Source: Geobacteraceae bacterium (GTDB lineage: Bacteria > Desulfobacterota > Desulfuromonadia > Geobacterales > Pseudopelobacteraceae). Taken from it: DNA of 46,837 nucleotides. Made by a program: the position numbers and the translations under genes. The DNA is taken from assembly GCA_025355325.1 (NCBI GenBank), contig JANXZX010000226.1:1-46837 (forward strand), in the 5' to 3' direction. Under the pieces are notes generated by a model, which saw nothing but the letters and a program-made list of their open reading frames with translations, was not told where the DNA came from and ran no database searches. Positions 4,083 to 46,837 of this stretch are shown piece after piece (positions within the stretch are counted from its first letter, which is position 1; every line of letters starts with the position of its first letter).

Positions 4083-7000
4083 TTAATGCAACCTCACCGA
4101 TACAACCCGCGATGCACCAGGTTCTTCCATGGTGATACCGTAGAGAGAGTCGGCTACCTGCATGGTGGTTTTGTTGTGGGTAATAATGATGAATTGGGAA
4201 ATTGAACTCATTTCCCTGACCATATCGTTGAAACGGCCGATATTTGCATCATCCAACGGCGCATCGACCTCATCCAGCAGGCAGAACGGAGTCGGTTTGA
4301 TCAGGAATATCGAGAAGATCAGCGCCACGGCGGTCAGTGCTTTTTCTCCTCCCGAAAGCAGTGTCACATTCTGTAGTTTTTTACCTGGCGGTTGAACGAT
4401 AATGTCAATGCCGGTCTCCAGCAGATCTTCTTCGTCAGTCAGCCGCAATTCAGCCCGGCCTCCGCAAAACAGGCGCGGAAAAACCTCCTGAAACTTCGCA
4501 TTAATCAAGTTGTACGTTTCCAGAAAACGCTGGCGGGTGGTGCGATTGATCCGCTGAATTGCCTGCTGCAGACTGCGCAGAGACTCTTCAAGGTCTTCCT
4601 TCTGGCCGGTCAGAAAATTATATCTTTCCTCCATCCCGGCGCACTCCTCAATTGCCATCAGGTTGACTTCACCCATTTCATCCAGAAACCGCTGCAACTC
4701 AACCTGCCGTGCCCGGCGCGACACTTCATCGAATTCCGTAGACTCCAGTTTTGCCACAGCTTCTGACATGCTTATGCGACTTCGCTCCAGCAACGCCTGC
4801 TCCAGATGTTCGGTCTGCATGGTCAGAGTTGTGAAGCGAAGATTAAGATCTGTTTGAGACTGGCGAACGGTATCTCCCTCTTCACGATTTTTCTTAAGGT
4901 GCGCCTCAATCAGGTTCAACGCGCCGCCCGCCTCCTCAAATCGGCTGCGAATCGCGGCCAAGCGACTTTCAGACTGCAACTGATCACGAACGAGAACTTC
5001 CAGACGCCCCGTTGCCACAGCTATCTCCGCCTCAAGCTGCAGCCGTGAAGCAGCACTGGATTCGATTTCCTGCCTGTCGGCGGCCATGCGCCGTGCAATC
5101 TCTTCCGTCTGCCGTTCCAGATCCGCCAATGCGCGCACTCCGGCATCGTGCTGTTCCTTGATAGTTGCGGTCTGCACCCGAATCGCGGTTACCTTTTCGC
5201 GAACAACCGCCACCTGCGCACGACGTGAATCAAGCTCAGCCTTCAGGCGAACAGTATCCAGCTCCAGGTTCTTTGAGGAGTCACCGGTCAGCGCCATCTG
5301 TTCACCAGCCAGCTTCACCTCGGTTTCCAAAGTCCCCTGTTCCTCAGCAAGATTGTCCGCCTCCAACGCCTGAACATCCAGACGCTCGGCGATACGGGCG
5401 CTTTCATCGCGGGCCTGTTGGCAGTCTTTGCGCAAACCGATCAATTTCAACTCTGTCTGGTGCAACTGCATCCCACCGTTCTTAAGCTCTTCGGCAACTT
5501 CCTGGCTCTGGCGACGTACGTCATCTCGCTGCCTGCCAAGAGTGGCAGTCTCTTCCTCCAGTCTGGCGACTGACAGCTCCAGCTCCCTGATTTCACGTTT
5601 CTTATGAATTAATCCGGTGCCGACCTGCTCGCCCGAGCCACCACTGACGATTCCTCCCTGAGCAACCATGTCACCGGCGCGAGTGACAAAAAATAGCCCG
5701 GGATACTGACGGGCAAGACCGAGTGCCGTACTGATGTCATCCACCAGCATAACGGTGGCAAGCAGATTCCGGATCAATCCGGCAAACGGGCCATCAATCT
5801 GCACCTGTTCCAGCAACGGCATTGCTTCCGAGATTACAACCGGTGCAACTTCCGAGACCTCCAACCGCACGGCAATTCCGGCACGCCCGCCATTCTTTGC
5901 TTTAAGAAATTCCAGTGCTTCAATGGCACTCTGATCGTCGGAGCAGAGGATACACTGCAAACGATCCGCAAGTGCCGCTTCCAGTGCCGCCTCCAATTCG
6001 GCGGGAGCCTGGATGGCATCCGCCAGTACGCCGCTGAAACGGGAACGCTGCCCGGCATCCTGCATCAACGTGCGCACCCCCTGTCCAAAACCGGCAAATT
6101 GGGCTTCCAGCTCTTTCAGCGAATGAAGGCGCGATGAGCTGCGATTCAGCCCGTCCCTGCAGGATTGCCACCTTTTTTCAATTTCCGGAAGCCGCCGCTT
6201 CAACTCATCCTCCTGACCACGCAAGGATGAAATGTATGCCTGCAACTCTTCCTGTTCCTTCTGACCGGTGGCGATTTCTTTTTCCAGAGCGTCAGCCCGC
6301 TGGCGCTGCTGTTCACGCCGTTCGCCCAATTGCATAGCTTCGCGTGTATGGCGATCAACCCGCTCACGGAGCACGACCAGGCGTTTCTGAGCGTTCTCGA
6401 ATCGACTCTTGAACTGAGCCGCCTCAGCCAGAGCGGTAAAAAGTTCCCGGCGACGGTTTTCCAGCTCCCGACTCAGTTTTTCTTCAGCCAGCTGATGCCC
6501 GGCCAGCAATTCCTCCGCTTGTTCAAGATCCGCCTGAATACCGGCGGCGTCGACAGCCCCGTTGTTACGGCGAAGCTCAAGCAGCTCCCGCTGGGCAGCG
6601 CATTCTTTCAGGCGGATATCCAGCTCAGCAGCCTCCGCTGCGAGCCGCGCCAAACGGCCATCCAGCCCCCCCAGTTCTTTACGCTGAAACTCCAGCCCAT
6701 TCGAGGTTGTATTGTAGTCACTCCTGACACGGAAGATTTCCTCCTGGGCAACTGTCAGCTGTTTCTCCGCCTCCAGCAGTGCTATGCGGGCCTCCTCGGC
6801 CTGCGACTCTCCGAGCGCGGAGGCGGCAAACACTTCGCGGATCCGCTCGTTGAGCGCAGCAAGCTCCCGCTCGGCCACCACCCGTTGCTTCTGCGCCTCG
6901 CAAAATTCACGCGCGGTAAACAGCAGCTCTATTTCACGCAGCTCATCACGATATTCGCGAAATTTTTCGGCCTTTTTTGCCTGTCGCTGCAGGGACGCCA

Positions 7001-7613
7001 GCTGTCGTCGAATTTCTCCCAGCACGTCGGCCAGTCGGGCCAGATTCAGACGGGTGCCTTCAATTTTTTTCAGTGCCAGCTGTTTGCGAGACTTGAATTT
7101 GGTCACACCAGCCGCCTCCTCGATCAGAAAACGGCGTTCTTCCGGCCTAGAATGAAGGATCTGGCCGATCTTCCCCTGTTCGATGATCGAATAGGCACGG
7201 GTACCGACACCGGTATCCATAAACAGTTCCGTAATATCCAGAAGACGGCAGGGGGTCTTGTTGATCAGGTAATCACTCTCACCATCACGGTAAAGACGGC
7301 GGGTGAGCTGGATCTCCGCATAATCAAGGTACTTGGCGGGAGCACGTCCATCTTCAGTAGAGAATACCAGCGACACCTCCGCAACACCAAGAGGTTTGCG
7401 GTTCTCGCTGCCGACAAAAATCACGTCTTCCATCGCCTTTCCGCGCAGATTCTTGGCGGACTGTTCCCCCATGCACCAGCGGATAGCATCAACGATGTTC
7501 GACTTACCGCAGCCGTTAGGTCCGACCACACCGGTTACCGGCTGCTGAAAGTCCAGCACAACCTTGTCGGCAAAGGATTTAAATCCTGATATTTCAAGAC
7601 GCTTGATTTTCAT
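4083..7613 (-). CDS. smc: Chromosome segregation protein SMC
   Basis: 1176 aa from the chosen start, the usual length for bacterial SMC. N-terminal head: Walker [10 protein letters not shown] at residues 31-38 and the family-typical opening [17 protein letters not shown]. Two long coiled coils rich in Glu/Arg/Gln flank a globular hinge with glycine-rich segments ([13 protein letters not shown]). C-terminal head: ABC signature [16 protein letters not shown] and Walker [17 protein letters not shown]. It would condense and segregate the chromosome with ScpA/ScpB, neither of which is in the window. An in-frame ATG 36 bp upstream (7649) is possible, but I chose the internal ATG because family members begin with this motif. 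No strong Shine-Dalgarno is seen at either start. Confidence 0.96.
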
Positions 7614-7854
7614 AGTACCATTACGTGTGCTAAAGTATTGTATTGCCATATTACTTGTTGATTCTTATGTGCTGGTTTGTTGCTTTGTTTCTGCCACTGC
7701 TGACTTTGTTAAAATGGTTCGGCTGAGTAAAACGACTAATTTCTATAGACGCAATAACCCGTTAGAAGCTACTATTCACAATCGTTTATCCACTTTGCAG
7801 TTCATCGCAAATTGTAACGCAAGTCGATAACATTCTACCTAAGAAGGGACTATC

Positions 7855-36667: not shown

Positions 36668-36697
36668 CAGGGTGCCACGAATTAACGTAACACCCTG
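36668..36697 (-). terminator. Terminator downstream of the tRNA gene
   Basis: On the minus strand CAGGGTGTTACG pairs with CGTGGCACCCTG (two G-U wobbles), loop TTAATT, followed by TTTG. It lies 3 bp after the tRNA CCA end. Confidence 0.7.
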
Positions 36698-36700
36698 ATT

Positions 36701-36776
36701 TGGTGGAGATGAAGGGATTCGAACCCTCGACCCCTGCCTTGCGAACGTACCGCTCTCCCAACTGAGCTACATCCCC
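36701..36776 (-). tRNA. tRNA-Ala (anticodon CGC), probably hybrid with broken anticodon stem
   Basis: 76 nt with encoded CCA. The acceptor stem (GGGGATG/CATCTCC), D arm (GCTC..GAGC), T arm (GAGGG TTCGAAT CCCTT) and discriminator A all fit. The loop is TTCGCAA, giving anticodon CGC, alanine. The anticodon stem strands are GTACG and GGCAG, which form only 2 of 5 pairs. GTACG would need CGTAC; GGCAG would need CTGCC. The 3' half lies on the core side and the 5' half on the island side, so a strand exchange in the 7-nt loop could have made a hybrid. A sequencing error is unlikely to change several bases coherently. The tRNA may be inactive. Confidence 0.8.
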
Positions 36777-36926
36777 ATATCATACTATAAACAAATATAC
36801 ACAACAAATTCACTTGATTACCAAGGTATTACAAGCTACTGTATTTTTACTTTGTACATACTCGTTCATTCGTCAAACGCAATTTGCGCATTATCTCTGC
36901 CGCATATTTGCCGCATGGAGTTCAAT

Positions 36927-38189
36927 GTGTCTGACATCAAGAAGAAAATCTATATAGCCAGCAAGCTGTTCAAAAAACCGGAATTAGAAGACAAGCCGTA
37001 TCGCATATACGATACCGACATCAAAGGCTTTGTCGTACGTGTTCTGCCGTCCGGCAGGGTGAGCTACTACTATGAATACCGCAATGAGGCAGGGAAAAAC
37101 AAGAGTTTTTATATTGGAAGGCACGGCGACATCACCGCAGACCAAGCCCGTGATGTTGCCAAGAATAAATCTGCTGATAAAACCAAGGGTATAGACGTTC
37201 AAGCTGAAAAGAAGAAAAGCAAAAAGGTGGCTAAGGATAACCTCACTAAAACAATAGAAGGGTATATTGACGCTGAATATGAAGATTGGGCAAAAGCCAA
37301 CCTGACCTCAGGGGAAATAACCATTAAACGGATTAAAAGGAATTTTGTTCACTTGCTTGACACCCAAATGGAAGAGCTGACGTTGTGGGATTTAGAGAAG
37401 TGGCGAACGGAGCAACAGGCTAAAGGTAAGAAGCCGGTTACTGTCAACCGTGAAGTTTCTGATCTTAAAGCCATGCTTGCCAGAGCTAAAAAATGGGGAC
37501 ATATAAAACATCACCCTCTTGTTGATCTTGAACCACTTAAAATAGAAGAACTGCCACCGCCACGATATTTATCAATTGAAGAATCAAAGAGATTATTGGA
37601 TGCACTGAAAGACAGGGAAGAGAACAAGAGAATAGGAAGGGCAAGCGGAAACAAGTGGAGGGCAGAACGTAAAAAAGAATTGATGCCGGAGTTCGACAAG
37701 TATTTTGTTGATTATCTCAGACCGATGGTGTTGGTCAGTCTGTTCTCAGGGATAAGAAGAGGCGAGTTGTATAAACTGAAATGGGAAGACATAAACCTCG
37801 ATGGTCGTGTATTAGTCGTAAAGGGATCAAACGCAAAAAACAAAAAAACGAGGCACGTCCCGCTGCATCCCGAAATAGTTGCTGTTCTTAAAGCGTGGCA
37901 AGATCAAACCACGACTAAAGGTCTAATTTTCCCTAACTCAGAGGGAGAGCAATTCTATGACATTAAAAAGTCATGGAAAAAGCTCTTGCTTGCTGCAAAG
38001 ATTGAATCTTTCAGATGGCATGATCTACGTCACGACTTCGCTAGCCAACTTGCCATGAGCAGTGTTGACTTGAACACTGTCAGGGATTTGATGGGCCACT
38101 CTGACATAAGAATGACACTGCGCTACGCTCACTTATCACCGGAACACAAGGCAGAGGCTATCAACAAACTCGGCAGTAAAGGACTTTGA
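36927..38189 (+). CDS. Tyrosine integrase of the island
   Basis: 420 aa from GTG 36927, which has GGAG six nt upstream; ATG 36915 is an in-frame alternative lacking a site. N-terminal arm-binding (DUF4102-like) domain: KPYRIYDTDIKGFVVRVLPS, YYYEYRNEAGKNKSFYIG. A core-binding SAM-like region follows (ANLTSGEITIKRIKRNF). The catalytic domain carries the Arg (LFSGIRRGELYKLKW), Lys in VVKGSNAKNKK, HxxR (RWHDLRHDFA), second His (LMGHSDIRM) and nucleophile Tyr (TLRYAHLSPEH). It starts 150 bp from the tRNA and points away from it. Confidence 0.95.
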   Translation: MSDIKKKIYIASKLFKKPELEDKPYRIYDTDIKGFVVRVLPSGRVSYYYEYRNEAGKNKSFYIGRHGDITADQARDVAKNKSADKTKGIDVQAEKKKSKKVAKDNLTKTIEGYIDAEYEDWAKANLTSGEITIKRIKRNFVHLLDTQMEELTLWDLEKWRTEQQAKGKKPVTVNREVSDLKAMLARAKKWGHIKHHPLVDLEPLKIEELPPPRYLSIEESKRLLDALKDREENKRIGRASGNKWRAERKKELMPEFDKYFVDYLRPMVLVSLFSGIRRGELYKLKWEDINLDGRVLVVKGSNAKNKKTRHVPLHPEIVAVLKAWQDQTTTKGLIFPNSEGEQFYDIKKSWKKLLLAAKIESFRWHDLRHDFASQLAMSSVDLNTVRDLMGHSDIRMTLRYAHLSPEHKAEAINKLGSKGL

Positions 38190-38196
38190 GGGGACT

Positions 38197-38628
38197 ATGG
38201 AAACGAATATATTACCATTTTTAGTATGGGATGAACAGCTTGATACTGCTCTTGAACAGATTGCTCACGGCAACACTTCTGAAGGTTATGTTGTCTTGTC
38301 GCACTTTGTAAATACAGCTGGTTCTGGTGGCAACCCAGACCCCAAAGCCATGAAATTCGTTATAGAGGCTTTTAGTGAAATATTATTACAATATCACTCC
38401 GGCGATAAAATTGATTTTGCTACCGCTTTAAAAATGAAAAGGAGTCGGGGAAGAGCCTCCAAAGGTAAATTCTATCTTGCTCTTCGATATGGTGACGAGA
38501 TCACGCAGTTGCAGCAGTATGGTTTTACAAGTAAGAAAGCCTTTGCGATAGTAGCCAAAAAATATGGACATACCGATGAGACTATTGAAAAGTATTACAC
38601 TATATATAATAAGATTGCAGGGAATTAA
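38197..38628 (+). CDS. Hypothetical protein next to the integrase
   Basis: 143 aa, with GAGGGGACT before ATG and only 7 bp from the integrase stop, so likely co-transcribed. The N-terminus is acidic and helical; the C-terminal part (SRGRASKGKFYLALRYGDEI, FTSKKAFAIVAKKYGHTDET) is basic and helical and could bind DNA. I do not recognise a family. Possible directionality or transfer partner of the integrase; this is a guess from position only. Confidence 0.75.
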   Translation: METNILPFLVWDEQLDTALEQIAHGNTSEGYVVLSHFVNTAGSGGNPDPKAMKFVIEAFSEILLQYHSGDKIDFATALKMKRSRGRASKGKFYLALRYGDEITQLQQYGFTSKKAFAIVAKKYGHTDETIEKYYTIYNKIAGN

Positions 38629-38715
38629 CCGCATTTAAACACCCCGTTTAAAAGGCACCGCATTAAATCATCCCTTTATCAGCTAATCCACAAATTAAAA
38701 ATTTTCATTCATTAT

Positions 38716-38753
38716 CCTCCTGAGTCTACTAAAGACTACTAAAACTCAGGAGG
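38716..38753 (+). promoter_or_regulatory. Perfect hairpin sequestering the Shine-Dalgarno of the excisionase-like gene
   Basis: CCTCCTGAGT (38716-38725) is exactly complementary to ACTCAGGAGG (38744-38753), and the second arm contains the AGGAGG ribosome-binding site of ATG 38760. The 18-nt loop contains a tandem CTACTAAA repeat. Folded RNA would hide the site. The same palindrome could also be a DNA operator. Confidence 0.8.
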
Positions 38754-38759
38754 TCAGCA

Positions 38760-39005
38760 ATGTACAAAACCCCGCAACAAAAAAGAGGCTTCAAAGAAGA
38801 AGAGGCATCCGATTACCTCGGATTTTCTCGCTCATTCTTGCGACAAGGGAGAATGACGGGCGAACTCGAAAACAAAATCCCCCCACCACCGTTTATAAAA
38901 GTAGGTAATCGAGCCATCAGGTATCTCAAAGAAGATCTTGACGAGTGGCTTGACCAATTCCTCAAGTATCAGCACACCCACCAAACAATGAAAGGGGGTA
39001 ACTGA
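38760..39005 (+). CDS. AlpA/excisionase-like small DNA-binding protein
   Basis: 81 aa. A MerR-like/AlpA winged helix: EEEASDYLGFSRSFLRQGRM as helix-turn-helix, PPPFIKVGNRAIRYLKEDLD as wing, EWLDQFL as last helix. AlpA family members act as recombination directionality factors or regulators of integrase in P4-like elements. Its Shine-Dalgarno lies in a hairpin (38716-38753). It is followed by two small genes (ATG one base after its TGA). Confidence 0.85.
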   Translation: MYKTPQQKRGFKEEEASDYLGFSRSFLRQGRMTGELENKIPPPPFIKVGNRAIRYLKEDLDEWLDQFLKYQHTHQTMKGGN

Positions 39006-39006
39006 T

Positions 39007-39201
39007 ATGTCAAGCATGAGAGGAACAATGAAACTGGTAAACCCCTACACAGGCAGGATGGAGTGCAAAGTCTGCGGCGAATATCACAATGCTTGTATTC
39101 GTCCTATGTCAGGGGGGAAATATTACCGTGGTTCTTGGCAATGCAGATTCGGGTGCAAGCAAGAAGATGTCATACCCAAACACAAGGAGGTTACATTATG
39201 A
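39007..39201 (+). CDS. Small zinc-finger-like protein
   Basis: 64 aa. CKVCGEYH and the later CRFGC give a Cys pattern for one zinc site, with Arg/Lys/Tyr between. GGGGGTAACTGAT precedes ATG. The stop overlaps the next gene's start (ATGA). Small zinc-binding proteins of this sort are common in phage-like and integrative elements. No defined function. Confidence 0.75.
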   Translation: MSSMRGTMKLVNPYTGRMECKVCGEYHNACIRPMSGGKYYRGSWQCRFGCKQEDVIPKHKEVTL

Positions 39202-39728
39202 AACCAAATATTAAGACTATGCAGATAGGCTCAAAAAAAATAGAAACCGAGGTTCAACTGAGTTCAGAAAAAATGTGTGCCGAGTTAGCTGCTGCGAGAA
39301 AGAACCTAAGGAAAGTAAACGATAATTTTATGACTAATAATGTTCTGCTCAAATTAATTGATAAGCTGGTCGAATGCCTGTTCATTAAAGACGCAACGGA
39401 GTCAACTGATACGGCGTTCGATTATTTGTTTGCCGCTGAAGCGCATTACGAAGAGTTGCCTAAATCTTCCAATGAAGTAAGTAAAGAAAATCACAGAATT
39501 CTTTATGACATCCGTGAAGTAATTGACCATCTCAGTGATTTGGTCAATAGCGTCCCACCACCCCAGAGCGGATGCGACTTGTCGGAGAGTAAGGCAGATT
39601 TTTGTCCGACGATAAAGCAAGAAGATACCGTGTCTTACTGCTTTGCTGACTGCATTAGTGCAACAGCAAGTCACAGCACTATTTATTTTTTATTAGTAAT
39701 TTTTATTGACAATCCCATCTTCATATAA
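39198..39728 (+). CDS. Hypothetical protein of the island
   Basis: 176 aa from ATG 39198, with CAAGGAGGTTACATT upstream; the open frame extends to 39063 but that part overlaps the preceding gene and has no site. The first ~110 residues are helical (MCAELAAARKNLRKVNDNFM, VLLKLIDKLVECLFIKDATE, NHRILYDIREVIDHLSDLV). The C-terminal ~50 residues become Cys/Ser-rich and end in a short hydrophobic stretch (TIYFLLVIFIDNPIFI). I recognise no family. It may be a short coiled-coil protein. Confidence 0.65.
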   Translation: MKPNIKTMQIGSKKIETEVQLSSEKMCAELAAARKNLRKVNDNFMTNNVLLKLIDKLVECLFIKDATESTDTAFDYLFAAEAHYEELPKSSNEVSKENHRILYDIREVIDHLSDLVNSVPPPQSGCDLSESKADFCPTIKQEDTVSYCFADCISATASHSTIYFLLVIFIDNPIFI

Positions 39729-39745
39729 GATCGTATAAATATGAA
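39720..39745. repeat. 7-bp inverted repeat upstream of the small recombinase gene
   Basis: TTCATAT ... ATATGAA with a 12-bp spacer, overlapping the end of the 39198 gene. A TTGACA at 39706-39711 could be a -35 element, but I see no convincing -10 at 17 bp. Perhaps an operator of the 39797 gene. Confidence 0.3.
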
Positions 39746-39796
39746 TCCTAACTATTGACGTTAATTGCACTGAAGTTAGCATTCAAGGAGAACGCC

Positions 39797-40393
39797 ATGC
39801 CAAATCCTAATCACCCGAAAAAAGGTTCCATCATCAAGACTGAGCCAATCCGAGAACTGAAAGACATAAGGAACATCAAAAAGCTCTTGGCAGATAAGCC
39901 CCGTGATTTAGCCATATTCGTCATAGGCTGCAATACTGCATTAAGAAGTATCGACCTGCTCAAATTGAAAGTTGGACAGGTTAGGCACCTGAAAGTTGGT
40001 GACAGCCTGTGTGTCAGGGAGCAGAAGACCGGCAAGTCAAAAGACATCTGCATCAACAATGCAGTATTTGATGTAGTTCAAAAGCTCCTGAAGCATTTGG
40101 GGGAAGAGGCCAAAGATACTGACTACCTGTTCCAGAGTCGCAAAAGTCGGGGTAAGCTATCGACTCCTACACTCAATGCAATGGTCAAGTCGTGGTGTAA
40201 GGATATTCGCCTAAAAATTAACGCAGGATCACATACCCTTCGTAGGACAGCAGGTTACCAACATAGGGTTCAGTTCAATACAGATGTACCGACTTTGATG
40301 GTCATGTTCAACCACAGCACGCAACGTCAGACTCTATCGTATTTGGGGATTCAGGAACAGGACGTTCAGGATGCCTATATGAAAGAGATATGA
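39797..40393 (+). CDS. Catalytic-domain-only tyrosine recombinase
   Basis: 198 aa from ATG 39797 (AAGGAGAACGCC). It shows the catalytic residues of the tyrosine recombinases: Arg in GCNTALRSIDLLKLKVG, Lys in REQKTGKSKDICIN, HxLR in GSHTLRRTAGYQH, His in VMFNHSTQRQTLSYLGI with Tyr as candidate nucleophile. There is no arm-binding or SAM-like core-binding N-terminal domain; only ~30 residues precede the catalytic fold. Proteins of this size (FimB-like, or recombinases that rely on accessory factors) invert or resolve DNA. It is followed by a gene-free stretch with direct repeats that could hold its sites. Confidence 0.85.
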   Translation: MPNPNHPKKGSIIKTEPIRELKDIRNIKKLLADKPRDLAIFVIGCNTALRSIDLLKLKVGQVRHLKVGDSLCVREQKTGKSKDICINNAVFDVVQKLLKHLGEEAKDTDYLFQSRKSRGKLSTPTLNAMVKSWCKDIRLKINAGSHTLRRTAGYQHRVQFNTDVPTLMVMFNHSTQRQTLSYLGIQEQDVQDAYMKEI

Positions 40394-40871
40394 ATGTAGA
40401 GCCGGGCAAATGTCGTCAATAGACAAAATACCCAAAAAATTCACAATATTTTGTATTGAGCTGTCTCCTCAATATGAACTGAGAGAACACAAAATGGTTA
40501 GTTTTCACTAAATCCGGCGATACAAGTAGGTCAATGGGCAATTTGAATCGACCACTCGAATTGTCCAAAGTGTCTATGAAAATGACGTATTGATCCAAAA
40601 TGTCTCAGAATAAGAATGCTCAAAGACACTGATAGTTTAGGAAGAATTGGGAGCATGAAACAGAAACAAGCCATATAGCCATGCAGAGTGGCCGTTTGAA
40701 TCATTCACTCGAAATATCGAATGTCTCAAAGATGTTCGGAAACCTAGAATCGAATCAAATCCGGTTCAGGAAACATAGCTTTTCACGCAGGGGTTAAAAA
40801 ATAAATCACAGCGGCGACATTTAGTCCTGAATCCCTGTTCCATACCGAAACAGATTTATGGAGGTTACATC
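40394..40871. other. 478-bp gene-free stretch with imperfect direct repeats
   Basis: No open frame here has a ribosome-binding site and recognisable coding character. It contains the repeats at 40537 and 40690, further TGTCT-containing units at about 40570, 40601 and 40721, and the GGAGG (40864) of the next gene. No clear promoter is seen. Confidence 0.6.
40537..40737. repeat. Imperfect direct repeat pair between the recombinase and the 40872 gene
   Basis: GGCAATTTGAATCGACCACT(CGAA) at 40537 and GGCCGTTTGAATCATTCACT(CGAA) at 40690 agree at 19 of 24 positions, 153 bp apart. Each is followed by a degraded TGTCT-containing segment. They may be recombinase sites or iterons, or an old duplication. 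Confidence 0.55.
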
Positions 40872-42080
40872 GTGCAACAATTCTTGTTTGAAGATATGTC
40901 AAAGTCTCCTTCGGCAAATTACTGCCCTGCGGACTTGATGAGCGAGAACATTCCCTATGATGCAGTGGAAGCTTTGTTGGAGGATTTTCTACAAGATGAG
41001 TTATCAGAATTCGAGTTACTGGATGTGCAAGCGGTTCCTGAGACAAGCCAAAGCGTAAAATACAAGTACAGCTCCGGCTTGCAGAAAAGCATCCGTCGTG
41101 GTCACATTGATGATGCTGTCAAGTATGCCTTAACATATCACAGCGTTGATCCGATCGCCTTCTGGAACCGCCTTGTGATTATTTGCTTAGAAGATGGCGG
41201 CGTTGGTAATCCAATGGGAGTTGCGCTCACCCTTGCCGCCGCAAGAAGTAAAGTGCTCCGGCAAAGGCTTGGTGGGGATAAATTGGTAATCCACTACGTT
41301 GTCAAATTGCTGGCGGAATCAACGAAGGATAGAACGGTTGCCGATATGTATCAAATTCTTGATAACCGTTCCTTGTCTCCTGAAACCTTAACTGTTCTGA
41401 AATCTGCCACCCATCAAGAGCTATCAGATATTGTGTTGTCAGATCAGCACCCCTGTAACTTCCGAATTGCTGCGGCATGGATGTTGTGGGGAACAGACAA
41501 ACTGAAAAATGGCAGATTGCCACTACGAACCGGCGACCGTGATTTATTTGAAAACACCATTGAACGGCTGAAAGTACCGGGGATCGTCAAATATATCTGT
41601 TTGAGGGGAATGGTTGCGTGTCGATGCGCCATGAATCTGACTTACGCCTTTGTTTGGCTCATGATGAAGCAATCACCCTATACGAGAGTTATCGAAACAG
41701 CATTGCCGGTAACATTTTACATCAAGGGATTGCCTTCGGCGGCATACGACCAGCACACCAGAGACGGAAAGGCTGCATACCATTATTTCTACAAGACATG
41801 TGCTCCGGTAGATAATTTTCTGACAAGTAGGGGCATCGTGGGGAGTGATGAAATTGTAGCTGCCATCGGTATCAGTCTCTTTATTTCAGAAAGTGCTCTA
41901 CTCGACAAGAGGATTGATTTTGAGGGAGCAGAAAAGATTTACCAGATGACGGTTGAGGACGACTTCCGTAAAAACGGCCTGACGATGGAAGACGGGAGAG
42001 AACTATCAAAACTGATTCTGGATAACGCCGAAATTCTGCGCCGATCAAGAATTCGGGTGGTAGAGGGTAAAACGGTTTGA
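40872..42080 (+). CDS. Protein with RarA/MgsA C-terminal-like domain, no ATPase
   Basis: 402 aa from GTG 40872 (TATGGAGGTTACATC). The part SGLQKSIRRGHIDDAVKYAL, PIAFWNRLVIICLEDGGVGN and PMGVALTLAAARSKVLRQRL reads like the helical C-terminal domain of the AAA+ replication-associated protein RarA/MgsA (K-S-I-R-x2-D-x-D-A-A ... R-L-V-x-x-A-x-E-D-x-G-x-A-D-P), but there is no Walker A or B anywhere in the protein. The remaining 250 residues (TVADMYQILDNRSLSPETL, GAEKIYQMTVEDDFRKNG) are helical and unassigned. A DNA-replication or repair role is inferred only from this resemblance. Confidence 0.7.
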   Translation: MQQFLFEDMSKSPSANYCPADLMSENIPYDAVEALLEDFLQDELSEFELLDVQAVPETSQSVKYKYSSGLQKSIRRGHIDDAVKYALTYHSVDPIAFWNRLVIICLEDGGVGNPMGVALTLAAARSKVLRQRLGGDKLVIHYVVKLLAESTKDRTVADMYQILDNRSLSPETLTVLKSATHQELSDIVLSDQHPCNFRIAAAWMLWGTDKLKNGRLPLRTGDRDLFENTIERLKVPGIVKYICLRGMVACRCAMNLTYAFVWLMMKQSPYTRVIETALPVTFYIKGLPSAAYDQHTRDGKAAYHYFYKTCAPVDNFLTSRGIVGSDEIVAAIGISLFISESALLDKRIDFEGAEKIYQMTVEDDFRKNGLTMEDGRELSKLILDNAEILRRSRIRVVEGKTV

Positions 42081-42218
42081 TTCTGACCCTACCTACCCCC
42101 TTCACCTGCTCTTTATCACAGCTTACAAGATGAATTTGAAGCACATCAAACCACTTATACGCAAAACATTATCCAGCAACCGGATCAATGCCGATAAATC
42201 CAGAAGGCGGGGGCGAAC

Positions 42219-42398
42219 ATGCAAAAAGTAACAATCGACAGATACCGGATTGTACAGGCACCACAGACAGGGATCGGATGGGTTGCCGTTCAGGAGTGGG
42301 ATGATGCCATTGGAGAGTACCGGCACGTTTCCATATGCCGAAGCATGGGTGAGACAGAGGCCTTTATCATTAGAAGCATTTCAAAAGCCAGGACGTAA
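42219..42398 (+). CDS. Small hypothetical protein
   Basis: 59 aa, below the usual ORF cut-off. It starts at an ATG after GGCGGGGGCGAAC and runs to TAA. The composition looks like a folded small protein: an N-terminal strand (MQKVTIDRYRIVQA), GIGWVAVQEWDDAIGEYRHV, and a C-terminal helix (GETEAFIIRSISKAR). No other frame over this stretch looks better. No family recognised. Confidence 0.5.
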   Translation: MQKVTIDRYRIVQAPQTGIGWVAVQEWDDAIGEYRHVSICRSMGETEAFIIRSISKART

Positions 42399-42551
42399 TA
42401 AAAAAGTTCAGGACACTATCGAAGATAAATTTGTAATGAGATGTCCAGTATGATATATGATGAGGAGTATGGTCATGCCTAGTCATTTCAATAGCGTAAA
42501 TACAGACAAATCGACACGTTACATGCAACTAATAAATTAAGGATTTATTCC

Positions 42552-42761
42552 ATGACAGAGGAAAATGTTGAAGAAGAAATTCTGTTTTCTGGCGAAAAAA
42601 ATAGAGTTTTAAGTATAATTAAGACATGCGAAAAATGTGGGCGGAAATACCATCCACGCAGAACAGGATATGAGTATTTTAGTCGATTCTGCTCGCAGGC
42701 ATGTACAAAAAAAGGAAGAGGTAAAGGTCTCACTATACCCAAACCTAAGGTAGATAAGTAA
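42552..42761 (+). CDS. Small zinc-finger protein
   Basis: 69 aa, AAGGATTTATTCC before ATG. CEKCGRKYHP and FCSQACTKKG give a C-x2-C ... C-x3-C zinc motif like that of small Cys4 fingers. The tail is Lys-rich. It ends 17 bp from the converging nuclease-like gene, with no clear terminator between them. Confidence 0.65.
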   Translation: MTEENVEEEILFSGEKNRVLSIIKTCEKCGRKYHPRRTGYEYFSRFCSQACTKKGRGKGLTIPKPKVDK

Positions 42762-42778
42762 CATAAGAGAGTAATCGG

Positions 42779-43402
42779 CTACCTTGTTTCAGTAACGTCT
42801 ATATCCCAATGCTCTGCTTTCCTTACAATTCCCTGTTCAAGTATTTCTTCGTTGATAAACTTGCCATAACACTCTTTCATTTCGGTGTATGTATAAACTC
42901 TATTTGAAATGTGAGCTATTATTACTTCAAAAACTTTATCTAAAGAATCTGCTTCTACTGAATTTCTATAATCCAATATCAATTTGCCCTTCATTGATAA
43001 TACGTCGTGTTTTTTTATAGGTCTATTTACTCTAAGTTTAGGCATTAAAAACAGGTCTAAAATAGAATACCAGTAATACTGGTGCGTTAAATAGTCCCTT
43101 ATCAGCAATCCAGAATAAGGAGCATATGCTAATATTTTTCTGGTTGAAAGTTCATCTACTATAAATGTGTGCTTTTCATCATTGTCGCAAATCAAAGGCC
43201 AGTTAGTAGTATTGTATTTTTGTCTTTTTTCTTTGACTTCTAAATAAATATTTCGTAATGGCGCATCAATGTTATTCACATCACGGATTATGTCTTTCAA
43301 TGTAAAATCTAATTTTTTATAATCTGAAGAGTTGTCGATAAAATCATATTTACGTAGTTTGAAATACGACTTTAGTTCTTGTTCAAAACTTTCGATTCCC
43401 AT
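42779..43402 (-). CDS. Putative PD-(D/E)XK nuclease
   Basis: 207 aa. The nuclease core is at residues 29-60: D32 in KLDFTLKDII and E55-x-K57 in IYLEVKEKRQKY, the metal-binding pattern of PD-(D/E)XK restriction enzymes. The rest (YAPYSGLLIRDYLTHQYYWY, KGKLILDYRNSVEADSLDKV) is unassigned. It is downstream of the 43417 gene (14 bp away) and of the XRE gene, all on the minus strand, so it is in the same operon as the controller. It may be the restriction enzyme or an accessory subunit. Low G+C, unlike the core genes. Confidence 0.6.
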   Translation of the reverse strand: MGIESFEQELKSYFKLRKYDFIDNSSDYKKLDFTLKDIIRDVNNIDAPLRNIYLEVKEKRQKYNTTNWPLICDNDEKHTFIVDELSTRKILAYAPYSGLLIRDYLTHQYYWYSILDLFLMPKLRVNRPIKKHDVLSMKGKLILDYRNSVEADSLDKVFEVIIAHISNRVYTYTEMKECYGKFINEEILEQGIVRKAEHWDIDVTETR

Positions 43403-43416
43403 GGATTTCCCTAGGC

Positions 43417-44526
43417 TTATAATAATTTATTGTACATTACAGACAAGTCACCGTCTCTTACATGATAGAGTTTTGCTTCAGGTGTTCCATTAAACTGACC
43501 ATGAGAATATCTAAGCTCATTGCGAAATAGGAATGTTTTCCCATTTTCAGAGTTAAGTATTTCAGTAAATATATTTAATTGTGAATCTGGCACTAAGCAG
43601 TAGAACTTATTTATAATGATTTTGCGGAGAGACTCTTGAATAGAAGGCACTTTATATATTTCCACAGAAGAATATGTCGTCTTGGCGTAATAATAGGAAT
43701 AATCGTGTATTCTAAATAATCGGAGTAGTTTATCGCTAGAAGTGCCTATAAATTTTTCGTAAGCGGCTATTATACTATTACCAGCTGATTGAGAACACTC
43801 TGACTTTGATTTATTGTATTTCTGAGATTGCTTCACATTTTCATTTATCCATTTAGAGAACACCTTTTCTCTAGTTAGAGAGTTTGTATTAGTCATAAAA
43901 TCAGCATAGGTGCTTGTGCTATAGTTTTTTATTTTACATGAGGTATTATTATACATGAGGGTTAACGTGTCATTTAACAAAGTACCTTCAGAAATATATC
44001 CCGTCCCGCTGTAATTAAATTTTTTAGGGCCAAGTTGAATTAGTAAATCACGTGTAGTTTCATACCAATTAAACAATTCTCTTTCTGCAAATGTTTCAAA
44101 TACGTGTAGCCCGCGTCGATGAAGCTCAGAGTTTGATATGATATTTAATAGCTTGTATAGCCCCATGTTTTCAAGGATGAAGCTTTCCTCTTTAAGCGAC
44201 AACTTATAATCGTTGACTATCAAATCTTCTGGGGAGTCACTTTTTTTATGATTCCCAACCCATTGTATATTTGGTGTTTGAATTATTCCGAGAATTTTTC
44301 TAAATTCTATCGCCAAATTAAACCCATTTATAATTACAGCTTTCTCAGCCTGATTAAACTGACGCAAGTCAGAAGCTATATTGTTTACCGTGATTTTGCA
44401 GTGAGTAATATTTCGATTACAATTTTCTGCAAATATCTGAGGGGTTATTGATTTTGGGTCACTTGAAGGGGCGTTCAGAAAAAATGCAACACTTAATTCA
44501 CGCAGGTTTGTTAAAATGTTAGCCAT
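43417..44526 (-). CDS. Putative type II restriction endonuclease
   Basis: 369 aa. A possible PD-(D/E)XK-like block is SDSPEDLIVNDYKLSLKEES (around residue 95-115), with Asp in the DLIV strand and Lys in the LSLK strand, as in the S/T-x-K variants. Other conserved-looking segments: FRNELRYSHGQFNGTPEAKL near the C-terminus. I cannot name the family. Genes of this position, directly after a C-protein gene (8-bp overlap) and divergent from a cytosine methyltransferase, usually encode the restriction enzyme. Very AT-rich. Confidence 0.55.
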   Translation of the reverse strand: MANILTNLRELSVAFFLNAPSSDPKSITPQIFAENCNRNITHCKITVNNIASDLRQFNQAEKAVIINGFNLAIEFRKILGIIQTPNIQWVGNHKKSDSPEDLIVNDYKLSLKEESFILENMGLYKLLNIISNSELHRRGLHVFETFAERELFNWYETTRDLLIQLGPKKFNYSGTGYISEGTLLNDTLTLMYNNTSCKIKNYSTSTYADFMTNTNSLTREKVFSKWINENVKQSQKYNKSKSECSQSAGNSIIAAYEKFIGTSSDKLLRLFRIHDYSYYYAKTTYSSVEIYKVPSIQESLRKIIINKFYCLVPDSQLNIFTEILNSENGKTFLFRNELRYSHGQFNGTPEAKLYHVRDGDLSVMYNKLL

Positions 44527-44740
44527 TTTTTTCGATCTCCGAAAATATTAAAGACAAAGGTACATTCAATGCTTTTGCTATCTTATAACCATTTTCAATG
44601 GTTATATTTTTCTCGGCTCTCTCTATCATTCCAACGTAGGTACGATGCACCCCAGCTCTATGAGCCAGTTCTTCTTGGGAAAGCCCCATGTCAGTGCGCA
44701 ACTGTTTGATTATCTTTCCAAATCTCGTCTTAATTTCCAT
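44519..44740 (-). CDS. XRE-type controller (C) protein of the R-M system
   Basis: 73 aa. A single helix-turn-helix of the XRE/Cro class: FGKIIKQLRTDMGLSQEELA, HRAGVHRTYVGMIERAEKN, ITIENGYKIAKALNVPLSLI. The size and layout match R-M controller proteins, which repress their own promoter early and activate the restriction gene later. It overlaps the restriction gene start by 8 bp (ATGGCTAAC region). Its upstream gap holds a repeated motif. Confidence 0.88.
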   Translation of the reverse strand: MEIKTRFGKIIKQLRTDMGLSQEELAHRAGVHRTYVGMIERAEKNITIENGYKIAKALNVPLSLIFSEIEKNG

Positions 44741-44757
44741 TTATCCCTCGAATTCTG

Positions 44758-44799
44758 ACATAAGATAGTATTTTTATATATTGGTCTACATACTATAGT
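44758..44799. promoter_or_regulatory. Candidate C-protein operator (two direct repeats)
   Basis: ACATAAGATAGT at 44758-44769 and ACATACTATAGT at 44788-44799 agree at 10 of 12 positions, 30 bp apart, in the 125-bp gap between the C gene and the methyltransferase gene. An ATAGTAT/ATACTAT inverted repeat lies between and across them. This is where C proteins bind in known systems. Confidence 0.45.
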
Positions 44800-44810
44800 T
44801 AGCATTCGGC

Positions 44811-44839
44811 TTGACACCAGCATCGAATCCAAATAGATT
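44811..44839 (+). promoter_or_regulatory. Methyltransferase promoter
   Basis: TTGACA (44811-44816), a 17-bp spacer, TAGATT (44834-44839). The start at ATG 44866 lies about 20 nt after the expected transcription start; the in-frame ATG at 44842 would lie before it, which supports the later start. Confidence 0.6.
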
Positions 44840-44865
44840 GTATGCACTACTCAGGGGGCAATTAC

Positions 44866-46125
44866 ATGAAAAAAAGCTTGTTATCACTTTTTAGCGGTTG
44901 TGGTGGTATGGATTTGGGATTTGAAGGGAATTTTTGGGTTCATTCGCCTTGTGTAAACAAAAACATTCGCCCTAACTGGGTTCAAGAAGAAAATAATGAC
45001 TTTACTCTTTTAAAACCAACCTCATTCGAGACTGTTTTTGCAAATGATATATTACCTTTCGCTAAAGCCGCATGGGTTCCTTATTTTTTGAAACGAGGGA
45101 AAGATGAATCGACATTTCATTTAGAAAGCATTGTTGATTTAGTAAAAAAACACAAATCTGGTGACTTTGCTTTTCCTGACAATATTGACGTAGTTACGGG
45201 TGGGTTTCCTTGCCAGGACTTTAGCGTGGCAGGTAAAAGAAAGGGGTTCAGCTCTCACAAAAGCCATAAGGGCCAGCTTCACGAAGAAATTGACGAACCC
45301 ACGAAAGAAAACAGGGGTATGCTTTATTCTTGGATGCGAGAAGTGATACAAATAACTAAACCTAAGATGTTTATAGCCGAGAATGTAAAAGGTCTCGTTT
45401 CATTGGGAGATGTAAAAGAAATTATTGAACATGATTTTAGAAGTATTGATAAGGGTTATTATGTCTTACCTGCGAAAGTGTTATTTGCCCCTGACTACGG
45501 AGTACCCCAACGTAGGGAGCGTGTTATTTTTATCGGCATAAGTAAAAGGTATGCCAAAAAGAGCATTTCAAAAATATATGAAAGTAATAATATTAGTGAG
45601 GCTCTCTCTCCGTATCCTCGACCTACGCATTACAATTTTAGGGATTCTTCACAGTTGGGATTATTTGACAATGGTCTAGTTCCATACGTGACAACGGTTC
45701 AAGTGTTATATGACTTACTTGAACCATCTGTATGCACAGCAGATTTAGCTCAAATGTGTTATTCAAAGGCATCATATTGCGGAAAAACGCAAGGTCAAAC
45801 GGAAATTGATTTAAACTGGGTCGGCCCTACTATACGAGCGGAACATCATGGAAATATAGAATACCGCAGATTGTCTCTTGATCATGGTGGAAAGCATTTT
45901 CAAGAACTAGAGTCTGGATTACTTGAAAGAAGGCTTACTGTTAGAGAATGTGCCAGAATTCAAACGTTTCCTGATGACTATGAATTTGTTAGGCACTCTC
46001 ATAAAAATGATCCCTACAATATAAGCGGATCAAGCGCATATAAGGTTATTGGGAACGCCGTTCCGCCACTCCTCGCTTATAGTATTGCTCAAAGGTTAGA
46101 GGAAATCTGGGACGAGATGTTTTAA
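44866..46125 (+). CDS. DNA (cytosine-5-)-methyltransferase
   Basis: 419 aa from ATG 44866. C5-MTase motifs: SAM-binding SLFSGCGGMDLGFEG (motif I), catalytic Cys C116 in GGFPCQDFSVAGKRKGF (IV), ENV in MFIAENVKGLVSLG (VI), QRRER in YGVPQRRERVIFIGI (VIII), and RRLTVRECARIQTFPDDYEF and YKVIGNAVPPLLAY (IX/X). The target-recognition region is about 240-340. It methylates DNA for self-protection; the recognition sequence cannot be read from the protein. Vsr follows 5 bp later. Confidence 0.95.
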   Translation: MKKSLLSLFSGCGGMDLGFEGNFWVHSPCVNKNIRPNWVQEENNDFTLLKPTSFETVFANDILPFAKAAWVPYFLKRGKDESTFHLESIVDLVKKHKSGDFAFPDNIDVVTGGFPCQDFSVAGKRKGFSSHKSHKGQLHEEIDEPTKENRGMLYSWMREVIQITKPKMFIAENVKGLVSLGDVKEIIEHDFRSIDKGYYVLPAKVLFAPDYGVPQRRERVIFIGISKRYAKKSISKIYESNNISEALSPYPRPTHYNFRDSSQLGLFDNGLVPYVTTVQVLYDLLEPSVCTADLAQMCYSKASYCGKTQGQTEIDLNWVGPTIRAEHHGNIEYRRLSLDHGGKHFQELESGLLERRLTVRECARIQTFPDDYEFVRHSHKNDPYNISGSSAYKVIGNAVPPLLAYSIAQRLEEIWDEMF

Positions 46126-46130
46126 TATGA

Positions 46131-46562
46131 ATGCGAGATAAGCTGACAACAAGTAAAATAATGGCTGCGATCAAGTCCAAAGGAACTAAGCCTGAAAGGT
46201 TGCTCTCATCGGCAATGTGGTCACTTGGCTTACGTTACAGGAAGCAATATAAAATTATTGGTAGGCCGGATTTTGTTTTCTTACGAGCTAAAATTGCGAT
46301 ATTCTGTGACGGTGATTTCTGGCATGGCAATAATTGGCGTTTACGAGGGTATAATTCCCATGAGCAAGAATTGACAAAATATTCACAATTTTGGGTGGAT
46401 AAGCTCAAGAGAAACCAAGAGCGTGACCAACACGTTACCACTGAGCTAGAACTAATGGGGTGGATAGTTTTAAGGTTTTGGGAAAGTGATATTAAAATAT
46501 CACCGGAGGAATGCGCCAGAAAAATTTATGAGGAGTATCAAAAATGGAGACAAAGCAACTAG
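46131..46562 (+). CDS. vsr: Vsr very short patch repair endonuclease
   Basis: 143 aa. Vsr signature: RDKLTTSKIMAAIKSKGTKP, GRPDFVF (catalytic Asp), IAIFCDGDFWHG with Asp/His, and VTTELELMGWIVLRFWESDI. It nicks next to T:G mismatches formed by deamination of 5-methylcytosine, so it fits next to the cytosine methyltransferase. The gene at 46544 overlaps its end by 19 bp. Confidence 0.95.
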   Translation: MRDKLTTSKIMAAIKSKGTKPERLLSSAMWSLGLRYRKQYKIIGRPDFVFLRAKIAIFCDGDFWHGNNWRLRGYNSHEQELTKYSQFWVDKLKRNQERDQHVTTELELMGWIVLRFWESDIKISPEECARKIYEEYQKWRQSN

Positions 46563-46837
46563 TCGGCAAGATTAGGAAAAATGGCTTTTATAACGACTGT
46601 GTACCAATGATTCAAATTCATGCACCTGATCCCACCAATTGCTTGGACATCAAAGAAGGGGAGCGTAGAGTCGTCACAATTACGGTTGGTGACACAAAAT
46701 ATATTGCGGGAATTCGTTACTGGCCTCGGACGTCTGAATTGAAGGTCTGTCAGGATATTAAAGGACTTGATGGACTAGATTACCGTTTAGCAGATCTTCT
46801 ATCGAATATTGGTATCATTCCATATAGTAAAGTGAGC
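46544..46837 (+). CDS. Partial gene at the window edge, R-M associated
   Basis: 98 codons open to the right edge; start ATG with GAGGAG seven nt upstream, overlapping vsr by 19 bp, so it is coupled to it. The translation (GFYNDCVPMIQIHAPDP, RRVVTITVGDTKYIAGIRYW) has alternating strands with Arg/Tyr/Trp, which might be a B3-like DNA-binding fold as in EcoRII-N, but this is weak. The truncation prevents a family call. A further component of the R-M locus, such as a nuclease, is possible. Confidence 0.65.
   Translation, partial: METKQLVGKIRKNGFYNDCVPMIQIHAPDPTNCLDIKEGERRVVTITVGDTKYIAGIRYWPRTSELKVCQDIKGLDGLDYRLADLLSNIGIIPYSKVS

Follow-up and report, generated by a model that had tools for sequence, protein, structure and literature searches.

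The window, as we call the whole 46,837-nt stretch of DNA analyzed here, is one contig (C51) of a 241-contig draft genome in which a tRNA-like sequence separates two regions. The left 36.7 kb (positions 1–36700, 51% GC) looks like core chromosome: the protein of 4083–7649, which we take to be Mfd, shares 76% identity with a protein whose gene adjoins the tRNA in G058, and this flank also encodes a fumarase-type lyase, a nitrite/sulfite reductase, and a PLP-dependent enzyme. To the right lies an island with a GC content of 40%, whose features are listed in Table 1 together with those of the tRNA-like sequence. The island integrase, with domains PF00589 (E 9.3e-31), PF13356, and PF24624, starts with an ATG at 36915 and points away from the tRNA-like sequence; its start overlaps a repeated motif to which the integrase may bind. 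The cargo at 43417–46562 is a type II restriction-modification set that includes Vsr, and its restriction endonuclease (43417–44526) scored above the cut-off of no Pfam family. The island portion on a second contig, C174, encodes a PLD-domain protein. In a scan of genome contigs with the integrase, 13 loci were 28–42% identical in their best segment, on contigs titled Pseudomonas, betaproteobacteria, Synergistaceae, and others. A scan of a virus collection with the arm motif gave one match, with no tRNA or integrase start visible in the surrounding 651 bp, and an exact scan of that collection with 43 nt of the tRNA-like sequence gave none.

Table 1. Coordinates of the island, its genes, and the tRNA-like sequence in the window
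Feature	Position	Strand	Remarks
tRNA terminator	36668..36697	-	resembles the terminator after the tRNA gene in G045, G072, G002
Hybrid tRNA-Ala(CGC)-like sequence, probable integrase-side attachment junction of the island	36701..36776	-	2/5 anticodon-stem pairs; two-allele chimera
Displaced 3′ half (GGCAG...CCA), apparently native	36701..36738	-	identical to the C174 tRNA 3′ half
Anticodon loop TTCGCAA, 7 nt, crossover interval	36739..36745	-	parent alleles differ at 31 and 39, none between
tRNA 5′ half, positions 1-31 (...GTACG), within the integrase-side arm of the element	36746..36776	-
Island, first 10,061 bp of about 10,899 bp	36777..46837		rest on contig C174 (reverse strand) up to the intact tRNA
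Putative arm-type site TGCCGCATATTTGCCGCATG	36898..36917	+	two TGCCGCAT units 11 bp apart
Tyrosine integrase, P4-like, 424 aa	36915..38189	+	Arm-DNA-bind_3 + Int_N + Phage_integrase
Helix-turn-helix protein, excisionase-like	38760..39005	+	PF12728; phrog_66 E 1.3e-05
Second tyrosine recombinase, 212 aa	39755..40393	+	catalytic domain only; inside island
Type II restriction endonuclease	43417..44526	-	PDLC03456, E 6.5e-62
C5 cytosine DNA methyltransferase	44842..46125	+
Vsr mismatch/nicking endonuclease	46131..46562	+
24-bp overlap with the end of contig C174	46814..46837		would join the island to its far end

Read on the minus strand from 36776 to 36701, the tRNA-like sequence is a full-length tRNA-Ala(CGC) with a CCA end and the G3-U70 pair. 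Its anticodon arm, GTACG-TTCGCAA-GGCAG, keeps the anticodon CGC with two of five stem pairs, and the remaining arms pair. The original prediction had described a tRNA-Ala(CGC) mismatched in the anticodon stem alone, with an integrase about 150 bp beyond its 5′ end and pointing away; both points hold, the distance being 138 bp. Rfam matches the tRNA family at 36776–36704 on the minus strand with 52.8 bits (cut-off 29), compared with 64.9 bits for each of the intact tRNA-Ala(CGC) copies on C174 and in G045, and its alignment flags non-standard pairs in the anticodon stem. ARAGORN does not call the hybrid as a tRNA. A promoter scan found no sites for the hybrid or for the intact copy (1.4 and 1.1 expected in shuffles). 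We infer that the hybrid is a non-working tRNA.

The two halves of the hybrid were compared with the alleles of the family. A 5′-half pattern with up to two mismatches matched 59 places in 56 of 76 family genomes, and all 59 were read; the 20 genomes with no match, several of them incomplete, are uninformative either way. Subtracting an orphan 5′ half in G045 leaves 58 complete genes, whose anticodon stems form all five pairs in 56 cases, four in one (G008), and two in the gene of the window. The latter is the sole such hybrid among the 58, and the relative that would have spoken against the prediction, one lacking the island and carrying GTACG/GGCAG, does not occur among the other 57. Natural stems include GTACG/CGTAC (nine), CTGCC/GGCAG (nine), and TTGCC/GGCAG (three). 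Compared with the GTACG/CGTAC allele of G056, the hybrid has no mismatch over positions 1–38 and 11 in 39–76; compared with the TTGCC/GGCAG allele on C174 of its own genome, it has six mismatches in 9–31 and none over 32–76. Since these alleles differ from each other at 17 positions, zero mismatches to both are not a matter of chance. The exact 5′ 38-mer of the hybrid recurs at seven other places among the 59 read, where its 5′ half and loop are those of the GTACG/CGTAC allele; seven others likewise contain its exact 3′ 45-mer, and the C174 allele is found unbroken in G074, of the same genus (100% over 77 bp). By this comparison, the hybrid is a chimera of two natural tRNA-Ala(CGC) alleles. 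Because positions 1–38 match one allele and 32–76 the other, the breakpoint falls in the anticodon loop, at 32–38. The allele comparison thereby bears out four proposals made from the window alone: strand exchange inside the 7-nt loop, a 5′ half from a different lineage, a 3′ half from the host side, and stem strands that are each sensible by themselves, as seen in intact relatives with GTACG/CGTAC or CTGCC (TTGCC)/GGCAG.

The window ends in 24 bases that are identical to the start of contig C174 read in reverse. The end of the window was compared with C174 only, in four orientations and over 10–199 bases, and this was the single overlap found; about 4e-10 overlaps of 24 bp would be expected by chance over all contig ends. 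An ORF starting at 46544 stays open across the overlap and stops after 14 more codons. The overlap and the continuous ORF suggest that C51 and C174 are adjacent and, because they join the window to C174, an intact tRNA-Ala(CGC) gene at C174:9777–9852 would be the far end of the island. This gene is oriented like the hybrid, the 3′ side pointing toward the island, and is adjoined by a terminator and a copy of TGCCGCATATTTGCCGCATG (C174:9909–9928) identical to the motif overlapping the integrase start. Hybrid and intact copy are identical over a block of exactly 45 bp that begins with the first loop base and runs through CCA. On its 5′ side, the C174 gene lacks the kinase-like gene end (our own reading) found there in many relatives; this flank therefore has a history of its own, a point that counts against the reading proposed below. 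We read the 3′ half of the hybrid as the native one, displaced, because its terminator resembles those in G072, G002, and G045; at the tRNA locus of G072 and G002 the resembling terminator is present with no integrase arm visible there. The 3′ half of the intact gene is, by the same sequence reading, taken as that of the element.

The far end bears on several further proposals. A partner attachment site had been expected there and was found, but in a different form: instead of CTGCC-TTCGCAA followed by non-tRNA sequence, it reads ATTGCC-TTCGCAA and continues into the full tRNA 3′ half. The element had also been thought to break the usual rule of 3′-half restoration; this is not supported, as the 3′ half of the intact gene is followed by terminator and arm site. 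The suggested search for other tRNA-Ala(CGC) copies yielded this one intact gene, and with up to three mismatches the genome holds two such 5′ halves, that of the hybrid and that of this gene. A host left with a damaged tRNA is not supported, and loss of the tRNA by the host is rejected on account of the intact far-end gene.

Related integrases occur in 8 of 76 family genomes at E ≤ 1e-60 and in 11 of 141 genomes of the order at E ≤ 1e-70, our genome being included in both counts. These integrases use three tRNAs, Ala-CGC, Val-CAC, and Arg-CCT (L055–L060, L084; far ends L079, L080, L085). Eleven integrase-side ends were counted as readable, the window and G056 among them; G034, with an integrase and no tRNA half visible in 500 bp upstream, and G136, with an integrase at a contig edge, were left out. 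Nine of the eleven hold an orphan tRNA 3′ half, from tRNA-Ala, Val, or Arg (isotypes of half genes are our own reading): tRNA-Ala(CGC) in G022, tRNA-Val(CAC) in G023, G072, G121, and G103, tRNA-Arg(CCT) in G058, G073, and G041, and Val at a decayed integrase end in G073 (C364). In each, the anticodon loop marks the transition from the tRNA half to non-tRNA arm sequence, and Rfam finds no tRNA at these nine ends. When compared with Ala and Val 5′ halves only, the nine arms match at 8–17 of ~31 positions, and those of the window and G056 at 31/31. The highest value among the nine, 17/31 to a tRNA-Ala 5′ half, belongs to G022 (L055), whose arm might be a worn-down 5′ half or a chance match. By eye, two repeats 11 bp apart precede the integrase in the aligned arms.

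An intact tRNA beside a terminator and the arm motif is present at six of seven far ends read, among them those of G015, G074, G021, G022, and G023; the seven include G065, whose tRNA is degenerate, and exclude an arm-motif match in G016 (two mismatches) that lies in unrelated sequence. In G023, assembled in two contigs, both element ends lie on one contig, ~32 kb apart. The closest precedent is G022, with the same tRNA target and an integrase 47% identical: its intact tRNA lies on C124 (63.9 bits, Rfam) and its orphan 3′ half on C22, and these contigs share a 23-bp overlap, orientation aside. As the same TGCCGCAT motif occurs in Ala and Val elements, there seems to have been an exchange of arms and targets among them. 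In G021 (C95, L079), a tRNA-Ala-like 3′-end fragment lies within ~200 bp of the arm motif, near the far end of an element that targets Val; it is perhaps the remnant of a stacked or retargeted element.

The unusual feature of the island is a complete tRNA 5′ half in the integrase-side arm, found at two of the 11 readable ends (window and G056). In the arm alignment, the 5′ half of the window replaces ordinary arm sequence of about the same length. The locus in G056 combines this arm with a broken integrase start and a GTACG/CGTAC tRNA, and 288 bp of it match the window at 76% identity. An element that restores 5′ halves, like those of the archaeal pTN3 type, would likewise carry such a half next to its integrase; with donor and host alleles mismatched, its integration would leave the target without an intact copy. 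In keeping with this, a junction built in this way is the only tRNA-Ala(CGC) found in G056, and an orphan 5′ half lies 163 bp upstream of an intact gene in G045. We nevertheless consider such an element unlikely, as the far end carries a full 3′ half rather than an orphan 5′ half, and 3′-half restoration is what we see in relatives that share the arm motif or have related integrases. A search of the genome with up to three mismatches found no orphan 5′ half, only those of the hybrid and the intact gene. The element shares a 5′ half with the pTN3 type, as far as the available part of its description goes, and differs from it in also carrying a 3′ half at the far end.

The arrangement in G045 deserves mention in its own right. 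An orphan tRNA-Ala 5′ half (G045:C41 82138–82101; L011:1762–1799, minus) comes right after a kinase-like gene end (our own reading) and is followed after 163 bp by the intact tRNA-Ala(CGC) (G045:C41 81937–81862; L011:1523–1598, minus). This mirrors the usual remnant, as if an element bringing a 5′ half had decayed.

Identity of the 3′ halves over 45 bp means that the assembler could have swapped joins, and in a 241-contig draft a repeat this short and identical could make the hybrid a misjoin or binning artefact. This is very improbable: the hybrid lies 10 kb inside its contig and, because both 3′ halves are identical, each way of joining the two loci still sets a GTACG half beside GGCAG. Decay by mutation of a single native gene once it became redundant, tolerable with an intact copy in the genome, is scarcely credible and was rejected on the allele comparison, in which all six differences from the intact copy lie in 9–31, all match another natural allele, and none falls in 32–76.

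Thus, we regard it as very likely that the locus is an ordinary ~10.9-kb tRNA-targeted island that restores the 3′ half of its target and that the hybrid is its displaced integrase-side junction. The intact far end and the same plan in relatives argue for 3′-half restoration. The features of such islands that we looked for are present: an integrase beside one end, a crossover in the anticodon loop and, across the proposed join, a regenerated tRNA and a displaced fragment at opposite ends in direct orientation. The chimera, the breakpoint interval, the arm motif, the plan of the relatives and, through that join, the far end are all read from sequence. In this proposal, an island with a P4-like tyrosine integrase and type II restriction-modification would insert into the host tRNA-Ala(CGC) by strand exchange within the anticodon loop. 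The far junction would unite the host 5′ half (ATTGCC) with the element-borne 3′ half, giving an intact tRNA that has its own terminator; the integrase-side junction would leave the displaced 3′ half of the host attached to the integrase-side arm. Because that arm holds the 5′ half of a GTACG-allele tRNA-Ala, this second junction resembles a complete tRNA, though a mismatched one. The 5′ half would have been captured in a GTACG-type host, e.g. the G056 lineage, possibly when the restored tRNA recombined, or underwent conversion, with the integrase-side junction. The simplest history would be capture in the GTACG-type host and then a jump into a GGCAG-type host.

Islands collected by Islander (PMC4383910) likewise combine a tyrosine integrase, an anticodon-loop crossover, and a regenerated tRNA with a displaced fragment; unlike in those islands, as the available part of that report presents them, the displaced fragment here is joined to a 5′ half that belongs to another allele and is supplied by the element. 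That part lists 3760 islands with 3′ fragments and 159 with 5′ fragments and names no class with both halves in attP. In tRNA-dependent lysogeny, described for mycobacteriophage Fionnbharth (PMC10865867), a tRNA is likewise not reconstructed at a junction; according to the portion of the account at hand, both junctions there are non-functional, the core spans about 10 bp, and the host is rescued by a separate tRNA of the phage. In contrast, the far junction here appears intact and the shared core is 45 bp, and on C51 and C174 Rfam matches tRNAs at the two junctions and nowhere else, with no separate tRNA of the same isotype. Element-left tRNA fragments that reach the tRNA score cut-off and are listed as tRNA genes have also been described (PMC9897764); in the accessible section of that paper these are partial genes, whereas the hybrid is full length and chimeric. 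In a limited literature search, no attP holding both tRNA halves appeared in titles or abstract starts among the matches listed.

The element is a small variant of an ordinary tRNA-targeted island, one whose arm carries a 5′ half. It is conceivable, if rather doubtful, that it has a complete tRNA gene divided between its two attachment arms, the 5′ half in the integrase arm and the 3′ half in the far arm, and so moves half-genes between species and drives allele replacement. If so, a host with the matching allele would gain two complete tRNA genes, either able to serve; later loss of the island could swap the 5′ half of the host for that of the element, as G056 suggests; and a mismatch like that of the window would mark a recent jump between allele types. 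The hybrid preserves a clear natural record of two things: the site of strand exchange by a tyrosine integrase, which the allele differences locate to within 7 nt, and a jump from a host with one tRNA allele to a host with another. Annotation can also mistake a displaced attachment junction for a full-length tRNA gene; here Rfam accepts it and ARAGORN does not. The finding suggests a route by which islands may carry tRNA 5′ halves from species to species.
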